64,000 bases of DNA from Pelagibacteraceae bacterium. GTDB taxonomy: Bacteria > Pseudomonadota > Alphaproteobacteria > Pelagibacterales > Pelagibacteraceae. Below the pieces are notes generated by a model, which was not told the origin of the DNA, ran no database searches, and was given only the letters and a program-made list of their open reading frames with translations. The stretch spans positions 434,001 through 498,000 of the forward strand of contig JALEGD010000001.1 of NCBI GenBank assembly GCA_022763425.1, in the 5' to 3' direction. Position numbers and translations under genes: made by a program. Below are positions 8,227-13,660 of this stretch, piece by piece (position 1 is the stretch's first letter; every line of letters starts with the position of its first letter).

Positions 8227-10658
<2,432 letters not shown>

Positions 10659-10664
10659 TTTGAA

Positions 10665-11582
10665 GTGTCTGCGAGAACAACTGAATTAAACAATACAACA
10701 GTAAGCTTCTCGCAGATTTTTATTTCCTTCTATGAGCTAATGAAACCAAGAGTGATGTCACTCGTAATTTTTACTGCTTTAGTCGGTTTAGTTATTGCTC
10801 CTGTAAAAGTAAATTTTTTAAATTCAGTTATTTCTCTTTTCTTTGTAGCAATTGGCGCTGGTGCGGCTGGAGCATTAAATATGTGGTATGAGTCTGATAC
10901 TGATAAGTTAATGAGCAGAACTTGCCTTAGGCCTTTGCCATTAGGAAAGTTAAAGCAGGACCATGCTTTGTGGTTTGGCTTATCAATGTCAATTCTATCA
11001 ATAATTGGACTTTATTCTTTTTCTAATTTTTTATCTGCTTTAGTATTAACTATTACAATCGGCTTTTATTTTTTTGTTTATACAGTTTGGCTTAAAAGAA
11101 AAACTCCTCAAAATATTGTCATAGGTGGAGCAGCTGGTGCTTTCCCACCAGTTATTGGATGGACTATCGCAACGAATAGTATTTCAATTGAACCAGTTAT
11201 TTTATTTTTAATTATTTTTTTATGGACCCCATCTCATTTTTGGGCGTTAAGCCTATATAAAAATGAAGATTACAAAAATGCAGGCATTCCAATGCTACCA
11301 GTTGTAGCTGGAGAAAATTACACAAAAAAAAATATTCTAATTTATTCAGTTCTTTTATTTCCATTTACAATTTTGCCATACTTTTTAGGTTTTGCAGGAA
11401 TAATAAATTTGATTACCGCAATAGGTTTTGGGTTTTATTATATTTATTTATCATATAAACTTTTTAAAGAAGTTGATAAAAAAATTTATGACAAGATAGC
11501 TACAAAAATTTTTGTTTTTTCAATTTTTTACTTATTCTTTATATTTTCAACTATCTTAATTGATAATTATCTCGGCATTTAA
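10665..11582 (+). CDS. ctaB: Protoheme IX farnesyltransferase (heme O synthase)
   Basis: A UbiA-superfamily membrane enzyme (305 residues) that farnesylates protoheme to heme O, the first step toward the heme a used by CoxA. The heme O synthase signature is visible: N72, E76 and D80 followed by M83, R85 and T86 in NMWYESDTDKLMSRT, then LRPLPLG, and later WTPSHFWALS. The start is GTG at 10665, six bases after the coxA stop. It lies within the oxidase operon, as in other Alphaproteobacteria. Confidence 0.97.
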   Translation: MSARTTELNNTTVSFSQIFISFYELMKPRVMSLVIFTALVGLVIAPVKVNFLNSVISLFFVAIGAGAAGALNMWYESDTDKLMSRTCLRPLPLGKLKQDHALWFGLSMSILSIIGLYSFSNFLSALVLTITIGFYFFVYTVWLKRKTPQNIVIGGAAGAFPPVIGWTIATNSISIEPVILFLIIFLWTPSHFWALSLYKNEDYKNAGIPMLPVVAGENYTKKNILIYSVLLFPFTILPYFLGFAGIINLITAIGFGFYYIYLSYKLFKEVDKKIYDKIATKIFVFSIFYLFFIFSTILIDNYLGI

Positions 11583-11693
11583 ATGGATAAAAAAACTAAG
11601 AAAAAAAATTATATCACTCTTGGAATATTAGTTGTTATTATGATTTTTTTATTTTTTATTACAATTTATCAAATTGGCGTTTCACTAAAATAA
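11583..11693 (+). CDS. Small single-helix membrane protein in the CoxF position of the cox operon
   Basis: A 36-codon frame starts with ATG directly after the ctaB stop and ends directly before the ctaG GTG, with no spare bases. It encodes a lysine-rich head (MDKKTKKKN), one hydrophobic helix of about 18 residues (IT to IT) and a short tail (YQIGVSLK). Many alphaproteobacterial cox operons carry a tiny membrane protein, often called CoxF, between ctaB and ctaG, so position and topology suggest the same. Exact abutment and same-strand frame argue for a real gene. I cannot assign a biochemical role. Confidence 0.75.
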   Translation: MDKKTKKKNYITLGILVVIMIFLFFITIYQIGVSLK

Positions 11694-12218
11694 GTGTCTA
11701 AAACCTTTAAAATCAATCCTAAATACTTAGTAGTATTAGTTATAGGGATGATAGGTTTATCTTTCGCTTCAGTCCCGCTTTATGATCTATTTTGTAGGGT
11801 TACGGGTTTTGGCGGAACTACTCAAAAGACTAACAAAGAGTCAAAGGTCGTTTTAGATAAAAAAATTAAAATAAGATTTGATGCGAATACCAGCCCTGAT
11901 TTATCTTTTAACTTTAAACCTGCTAAAAATTTGAGTGAGGTTAAAATAGGAGAAGTTAATACTATTAAATTTTTAGTTGAGAATCAGCAACCTGAACCAG
12001 AAAAAGTGATATCAACTTTTAATACCAGCCCCCCAATTGTTGGTAAGTATTTTCAAAAATTGCAGTGCTTTTGTTTTGAAAAACAAACAATAAAACCCAA
12101 TGAAATTAAAGAATTTACAGTCGCATATTATATAGACCCAAAAATTGTGGAAGATCCAGCGACGAAAGGAACCAGTGAGATAACTTTATCTTACAGTCTA
12201 TTTAAAGTAAAAGATTGA
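11694..12218 (+). CDS. ctaG: Cytochrome c oxidase copper-assembly protein CtaG/Cox11
   Basis: Cox11-type copper chaperone (174 residues) that delivers copper to CuB of subunit I. One N-terminal transmembrane anchor (residues about 11-27) is followed by DLFCRVTGFGGTTQ and a periplasmic immunoglobulin-like domain with the copper-binding C125-F-C127 pair in LQCFCFEKQTI and the C-terminal TLSYSLFKV strand. The start is GTG at 11694, immediately after the 36-residue membrane protein. This is Cox11-type CtaG and not the unrelated Gram-positive CtaG. Confidence 0.97.
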   Translation: MSKTFKINPKYLVVLVIGMIGLSFASVPLYDLFCRVTGFGGTTQKTNKESKVVLDKKIKIRFDANTSPDLSFNFKPAKNLSEVKIGEVNTIKFLVENQQPEPEKVISTFNTSPPIVGKYFQKLQCFCFEKQTIKPNEIKEFTVAYYIDPKIVEDPATKGTSEITLSYSLFKVKD

Positions 12219-12226
12219 GAATTATT

Positions 12227-13015
12227 ATGGCAGTTGAAAAAAAACATGATTATCATTTAGTTGACCCAAGTCCTTGGCCAATTTTCTGTTCATTCGCAGC
12301 TTTAATTTTAGCAGTTGGTGCAGTTTATTATTTTACCTCTAAAAATTTATGGTTGGTTTATGTGGGGGCAGCAGTAACGCTATACGGTATGTTCATGTGG
12401 TTTAGAGATGTCATTAATGAGGCCGAGCATAATGGAGATCACACTCCAGTTGTTCAAATTGGCATGAGATATGGAATGATACTTTTCATTGTTTCTGAAG
12501 TCATGTTTTTTGTAGCATGGTTCTGGGCATATTTTGATGCAAGTCTTTACCCTGATGCAGTTGGCGGGTCAGTATGGCCTCCAAAAGGAATTGAAACATT
12601 GGACCCATGGCATATCCCTTTAATTAACACATTAATTTTATTATTATCTGGAACCACTGTAACTTGGGCTCATCACGCTCTATTAGAAAATGACAGAAAG
12701 AGTTTAAAACAAGGTTTAATTTTAACAGTTATACTAGGTGCAATATTTACAATGTTCCAAGCGTATGAATATGTGGTTGCGCCATTTAATCTATCATCAG
12801 GAATTTACGGAGCTACATTTTATATGGCGACAGGCTTCCATGGATTTCATGTGTTAGTTGGAACATTATTTTTATTAGTATGTTTATTCAGAGTAAATGC
12901 TGGACATTATAAACCAGATCATCACTTTGGATTTGAAGCAGCTGCATGGTATTGGCATTTTGTTGATGTTGTATGGCTATTTTTATTTGCTGCAGTCTAC
13001 ATTTGGGGCAGTTAA
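12227..13015 (+). CDS. coxC: Cytochrome c oxidase subunit III
   Basis: Subunit III (262 residues, seven predicted helices) stabilises subunit I and lines the proton and oxygen entry paths. Typical blocks are KHDYHLVDPSPWPI, RYGMILFIVSEVMFFVAWFWAYFD, LLSGTTVTWAHHALLE, ATGFHGFHVLVGTLFL and AAWYWHFVDVVWLFLF. I chose the ATG at 12227, which gives the standard MAVEKKHDYH start; a TTG four codons upstream (12215) overlaps the ctaG stop and is less likely. Confidence 0.98.
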   Translation: MAVEKKHDYHLVDPSPWPIFCSFAALILAVGAVYYFTSKNLWLVYVGAAVTLYGMFMWFRDVINEAEHNGDHTPVVQIGMRYGMILFIVSEVMFFVAWFWAYFDASLYPDAVGGSVWPPKGIETLDPWHIPLINTLILLLSGTTVTWAHHALLENDRKSLKQGLILTVILGAIFTMFQAYEYVVAPFNLSSGIYGATFYMATGFHGFHVLVGTLFLLVCLFRVNAGHYKPDHHFGFEAAAWYWHFVDVVWLFLFAAVYIWGS

Positions 13016-13021
13016 AATTTT

Positions 13022-13660
13022 CTGAAGTCCAAATTTTTTAATTTATTTACTTATTTTATAATTCTCATACTCTTTTCACTTGGGTCTTGGCAAGTTTATA
13101 GGCTTCAATGGAAAAATGAACTAATATCAGAAATATCAAAGTCATACTTAAAGCCATCTAAAAATTTTAGTTCTAATTCAGAATTATATTCTAAAGTTCA
13201 AATTACAGGAAAGATTCTTCATGAACCCATATTTGTTTACTCGCTGGGATCAAAAGGTAGTTATGGGTACGATGTATATTTGCCGATTGAAACTGTAGGT
13301 ACAATTGTATTATCCAAGGCAGGCTGGTCACCAAAAAAATTTAAATTAGCTAAAAAGGACTTCGAAGACGTCAAAGTTTTTGATGCTATTTTATTAAAAC
13401 CAAAAAGAAGAAATGCATTTACTCCTGATAATTCCACTGATCTTATTTTCTTTTTGGATATGTCAGTACTTGAGTTAAATTATAAAAAAAAACTATTTCC
13501 TCTAATTGCAGAAAATAATTCAAATCTTTTAAAAGAGTATAATCTAAAAAAAACAGAGAAAATTAAATTACCAAATAATCATTTGCAATATGCTTTAACA
13601 TGGTACAGTTTATGCTTTGTGATAATTATAGCATTCTTAGTTTACAGAAAAAAAATATGA
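13022..13660 (+). CDS. SURF1-family oxidase assembly protein, apparently starting at CTG
   Basis: SURF1 (Shy1) helps insert heme a into subunit I. The frame reads LKSKFFNLFTYFII, then the family-defining LGSWQVYRLQWK with the first transmembrane helix, the central domain, the conserved YGYDVYLPIE and KAGWSPKKFK blocks, and the C-terminal helix near LQYALTWYSLCFVIII. Together these give 212 residues, a normal SURF1 length. Between the coxC stop (13013-13015) and the first conserved residues there is no ATG, GTG or TTG in frame; CTG at 13022 is the only near-cognate start placed to keep the whole first helix. A start at TTG 13280 would lose that helix and half the protein. The stop overlaps the thrC ATG as ATGA. 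Confidence 0.85.
   Translation: MKSKFFNLFTYFIILILFSLGSWQVYRLQWKNELISEISKSYLKPSKNFSSNSELYSKVQITGKILHEPIFVYSLGSKGSYGYDVYLPIETVGTIVLSKAGWSPKKFKLAKKDFEDVKVFDAILLKPKRRNAFTPDNSTDLIFFLDMSVLELNYKKKLFPLIAENNSNLLKEYNLKKTEKIKLPNNHLQYALTWYSLCFVIIIAFLVYRKKI

Follow-up and report, generated by a model that had tools for sequence, protein, structure and literature searches.

A 36-codon gene between ctaB and ctaG of a SAR11 bacterium belongs to a conserved alphaproteobacterial small-protein family resembling the mitochondrial assembly factor COA3

The window, a 64,000-nucleotide stretch of a 1.21 Mb, single-contig Pelagibacteraceae genome, carries on its forward strand a row of cytochrome c oxidase genes in the order ctaC-ctaD-ctaB-(36 codons)-ctaG-ctaE-SURF1. 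ctaC and ctaD (oxidase subunit I; 9051..10658) were recognised from their translations. ctaB (heme O synthase, COX10; 10665..11582) was identified by UbiA in Pfam and by TIGR01473 with 315.7 bits, and Pfam matches identified ctaG (the CtaG_Cox11 copper chaperone, COX11; 11694..12218), ctaE (oxidase subunit III, Pfam COX3; 12227..13015) and SURF1 (heme A insertion; 13022..13660). The small gene, which is CoxF-like and COA3-like as judged by its sequence, the class loci, pN/pS and profile comparisons described below, occupies 11583..11693 on the same strand. The ctaB stop codon TAA (11580-11582) is directly followed by the ATG of the small gene at 11583, and its own TAA (11691-11693) is directly followed by the GTG of ctaG at 11694, leaving zero spare bases at either end. 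Coordinates 11583-11693 and translation thus bear out the preliminary description, in which a 36-codon frame fills the interval between ctaB and ctaG exactly. The predicted product, MDKKTKKKNYITLGILVVIMIFLFFITIYQIGVSLK, consists, as also described there, of a basic head and a single hydrophobic stretch. The head (codons 1-9, 11583..11609) closes with K8-N9, and the helix, as read off the sequence, spans codons 10-29 (11610..11669) and includes F24 (11652-11654) and T27 (11661-11663). The basic head suggests an N-in orientation. In Alpha proteobacterium HIMB114, ctaG is 99% identical to that of the window and the small protein is identical.

Stops or frameshifts in close relatives, named beforehand as the observation that would speak against a gene, were absent from the compared sequences. 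Conservation of the frame was measured in three SAR11 genera: the mean pN/pS was 0.20 in the window's genus (six sequences, 15 pairs; locus L003, whose protein is identical to the window's, was left out), 0.18 in SAR11 genus g4 (14 sequences, 91 pairs) and 0.07 in SAR11 genus g5 (9 sequences, 36 pairs). These values are uncorrected proportions, because several pairs approach saturation at synonymous sites. In the six genus sequences the frame is intact and variable sites are distributed 12/9/30 over the three codon positions; the remaining two forward frames of the interval contain stops, one in 6/6 sequences and the other in 5/6. The exact abutment at both ends would fit a translated spacer or leader that merely couples translation of ctaB and ctaG and whose amino acids are nearly irrelevant. 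Such a role is very hard to reconcile with mean pN/pS values between 0.07 and 0.20, with the class-wide residue signature described below, and with the fact that elsewhere in the class the small gene does not abut both neighbours; moreover, the predicted RNA fold of 11540-11740 is no better than that of shuffled sequences (z +0.99), and promoter- or terminator-like sites are no commoner than in shuffles. The same fold score and the shuffle-level sites leave a structured RNA or a hidden promoter unsupported.

Within the Pelagibacteraceae, a plain search with the 36-residue query gave matches at E <= 4e-4 in 56 of 147 genomes (rows counted by hand) and no match at E <= 10 in 42, the search being insensitive at such a length. 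In the window's genus, seven of the eight genomes, the window's own included, match at E <= 4.5e-13, and the eighth (G022, 84% complete) reaches only E 0.37. As loci L001 and L003-L031 had been retrieved using the small protein itself, only loci anchored on ctaG are unbiased. A PF04442 search, which is independent of the small protein, located ctaG in 114 of 144 genomes of the class, from which 110 loci were taken (left out: G000, the window's own, and G003, G214 and G267). A recognisable relative lies just upstream of ctaG in 103/110 of these class loci, namely in 101 of the 104 with ctaB upstream of ctaG and in two of the six without (L156, L169). The small protein was likewise found at 75 of 76 ctaG loci taken from genome contigs, and all 30 ctaG-anchored loci of a sister family within the order, many of them near-identical, carry the small gene. 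Because a related small membrane protein is encoded upstream of ctaG in 103 of the 110 class loci and the mean pN/pS is as low as given above, 11583-11693 is a real, conserved gene.

The seven loci that lack the small gene at ctaG (L058, L132, L146, L162, L192, L195, L201) comprise three with a gap of 21-57 bases behind ctaB and four without ctaB upstream; L058, L132 and L146 come from genomes G155, G239 and G275, which match the family profile elsewhere. This profile, A1, was built from 67 family members with the window protein as first row, so that the match of the window place (E 4.9e-13, 49.3 bits) arises partly by construction. A1 matches 111 of the 144 class genomes at E <= 1e-4. Small gene and ctaG occur together in 106 of the 144, ctaG only in eight, the small gene only in five and neither in 25, showing that the small-gene family goes with ctaG. 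The five genomes with the family and no CtaG_Cox11 match are G149, G160, G167, G168 and G265. Three genomes have additional A1 matches beside the copy at ctaG (G242, contig 59:11887-11991; G261, contig 42:12029-12130; G195, contig 3:127409-127516), possibly second copies. In a draw across the phylum, which overlaps the 144-genome class set, A1 matched 81 of 88 class genomes (counted by eye) and none of 161 genomes outside the class at E <= 3e-6, the best outside value being 0.003; 112 match-less rows of this draw were assigned to other classes by table order. A borderline small protein (E 0.0012) stands at the corresponding place in L304 (Chromatiales).

Among the 131 anchored of 138 distinct family sequences, a K/R-N pair is present in 129, an aromatic residue at N+15 in 126 and T/S at N+18 in 113. 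The window protein carries the full signature (K8-N9, F24, T27). The preliminary description had also placed the gene in the position of CoxF of other alphaproteobacterial cox operons. In substance this stands, since the window gene is the counterpart of the small protein found upstream of ctaG at most class loci and shares its location, length class and residue signature. As to the name, no paper placing coxF alongside ctaG and cytochrome c oxidase was found in the full-text literature searched, and coxF denotes a CO-dehydrogenase accessory protein in the relevant passage of PMC3899966. The suggestion that the protein may be among the shortest versions did not hold: members of 29 (L182), 33 (L178, L198) and 35 residues (L041, L179) rule out a record for 36. 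At the other end of the range, lengths of long members may be overstated because they were counted from the first possible start.

COA3 (MITRAC12, CCDC56) is a mitochondrial chaperone of newly made COX1, a human disease gene product that has been studied in yeast and human cells. It shares with the family a basic stretch, K/R-N and one helix with an aromatic residue and T/S; its segment after the helix is a coiled coil. In single scans, the Pfam model Coa3_cc (PF09813) matched 39 of the 67 members at E <= 10, with a best value of 3.3e-7, and the next Pfam family matched 5/67. Twenty members were inspected singly: 14 match Coa3_cc at E <= 1, two of them scoring more than Pfam's 27-bit cut-off, and six are without a match at that E. 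The two above the cut-off come from the sister family and reach 29.9 and 30.3 bits, their residues 9-36 and 10-36 aligning to positions 9-36 and 10-36 of the 48 in the model. Six-frame searches of whole genomes, which remove the choice of query, gave Coa3_cc matches above the cut-off (27.1-33.1 bits) in 17 of 117 genomes of the SAR11 order, and all 17 lie shortly ahead of ctaG on its own strand (compared by eye). Above the cut-off there was none in the 144 class genomes and none in 249 phylum genomes. Among the 150 Coa3_cc matches listed for the 144 class genomes, 37 fall into the gap upstream of ctaG, including 17 of the best 40; about 0.016 would be expected there if matches were spread evenly over a genome of 3 Mb. 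Three more of the listed matches are family members located elsewhere (G265, G242, G149). When every member was shuffled within head, helix and tail, Coa3_cc was not among the best 25 of 61 families, and at most 1/67 shuffled members could match it, with E above 0.058. Judged from these Pfam-profile matches, the family is quite likely homologous to COA3 in its basic head and membrane helix, a stretch of about 28 residues.

The window protein itself gave no Coa3_cc match, at 27 bits or below, either in a Pfam scan of the protein or in the six-frame search of the order. It differs from COA3 in being bacterial, in comprising 36 residues and in lacking the C-terminal domain, as about 7-9 residues follow the helix. 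Because of the missing match and the missing C-terminal part, we refrain from classifying the window protein as COA3. Its link to COA3 runs through the family: it is identical in 15/32 residues, without gaps, to a sister-family protein that scores 20.2 bits with Coa3_cc, which is below the cut-off.

COX14, another mitochondrial factor with a single helix, was rejected as parent family: of its 139 rows in the 144 class genomes, none falls into the gap and one falls on CtaG itself. COX6C (PF02937), the mitochondrial oxidase subunit VIc, has a single helix after a basic stretch as the family does, and was rejected as parent family with 2/98 rows in the gap. One member, L170 (1180-1311 of the ctaG-oriented locus), scores 23.9 bits with COX6C against a cut-off of 22 and has no COA3 match, so a remote relation of the family to COX6C is possible, and COA3, COX6C and the small-protein family may be connected. 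The same score and the two gap rows would be in line with a structural accessory oxidase subunit of the COX6C type. Paracoccus and Rhodobacter oxidases are present in the PDB. The family profile found no convincing match among PDB sequences (best E 0.25, unrelated proteins), on which ground a structural subunit was rejected, and COX6C matches 2/67 members versus 39 for COA3, so that we hold such a subunit to be improbable. The window protein had no COX6C match, at 22 bits or below. The NCBIfam model NF038351 (cyt_ox_assem_30, 'cytochrome oxidase small assembly protein'), a family typical of Betaproteobacteria, matches 16/67 members at E <= 10 (best 9.9e-5), and 7 of 22 listed rows in the 144 class genomes lie near ctaG on the same strand. 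No class genome of the 144 exceeds its cut-off of 27.5 bits and the window protein is not matched; NF038351 may be a related family.

A part of the Coa3_cc signal is generic, because 5 of the 150 listed rows fall on the N-terminal anchor of CtaG. This observation, together with the position of the gene next to ctaG and its retention upstream of ctaG in two of the six loci without upstream ctaB (L156, L169), is compatible with a private helper of CtaG that serves the copper chaperone as anchor, partner or orienting factor, the likeness to COA3 then reflecting convergence of basic-head, single-helix proteins. Neither the shuffled members nor COX14 gave such a signal, however, and 17 order genomes exceed Pfam's own cut-off for COA3. 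The family also occurs without CtaG_Cox11 in 5/144 class genomes, and in L126 the small gene adjoins ctaB and is separated from ctaG by a longer gene, judged by eye to be a short-chain dehydrogenase. We consider a CtaG helper with merely convergent COA3 likeness rather unlikely.

We somewhat favour the view that the window gene specifies a minimal assembly factor for the aa3 cytochrome c oxidase, built around one helix and drawn from a family homologous to COA3, which would act as an early chaperone of CtaD. A single message would yield the small protein in parallel with heme O synthase (ctaB) and the copper chaperone (ctaG), presumably with its translation coupled to that of its neighbours. 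Its helix would be inserted with the basic head on the cytoplasmic side. It may then bind newly inserted CtaD (subunit I), its proposed client, and hold this subunit in an open state for the entry of heme A and of CuB delivered by CtaG, and would depart before the enzyme is closed by subunits II and III. Passages of PMC9232578 describe newly synthesised human COX1 in association with COA3 and COX14, and COX11 in complexes that also contain COX10, COX15 and COA3 and last up to copper loading; the bacterial genes for COX10 and COX11 flank the small gene of the window. For Paracoccus, sections of PMC5249081 state that nascent subunit I encounters CtaG before Surf1 and that an assembly intermediate contains an unidentified mass of about 40 kDa.

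Published findings count against this early CtaD chaperone. The N-terminus of yeast Coa3 is placed in the intermembrane space in part of a review (PMC7582755), the reverse of the N-in orientation suggested for the window protein. COA3 is given as undetected in the jakobid Andalucia in a portion of PMC7050145, and the plant list in PMC5877523, as far as its excerpt extends, has no plant entry for COA3.

The likeness of the family to a mitochondrial assembly factor is unexpected. With about even chances, COA3 is no eukaryotic invention: the alphaproteobacterial ancestor of mitochondria would already have possessed it as a small gene between ctaB/COX10 and ctaG/COX11, the cooperation of human COX10, COA3 and COX11 would be a protein-level relic of the bacterial gene row, and SAR11 would have kept nearly the shortest form. 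In the open full-text literature searched, neither a bacterial relative of COA3 nor a function of the small-protein family was found to be described; matches of this kind may already appear on Pfam or InterPro pages. The family aromatic at N+15 would presumably coincide with Y72 of human COA3. Y72C is a COA3 patient change, as given in a passage of PMC11011759. The word COA3 is absent from a review of bacterial assembly proteins (PMC9145763), and early assembly factors are often poorly conserved according to a passage of the Paracoccus study (PMC5249081). If the family is homologous to COA3, the COA3 step becomes open to study in easily deleted bacterial operons, as few as about 30 residues may make up its minimal working part, and it becomes possible to test where an assembly factor supposed to be eukaryotic came from.

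A further observation concerns SURF1 at the end of the gene row. Its frame (13016-13660) contains no ATG, GTG or TTG until the middle of the protein (13280), and the apparent start is a CTG at 13022, which the window shares with four loci whose ctaG is close (L232-L235). In three more distant SAR11 loci (L237, L290, L291), SURF1 opens with ATT directly after the ctaE stop. In SAR11, translation of SURF1 may begin at rare start codons.
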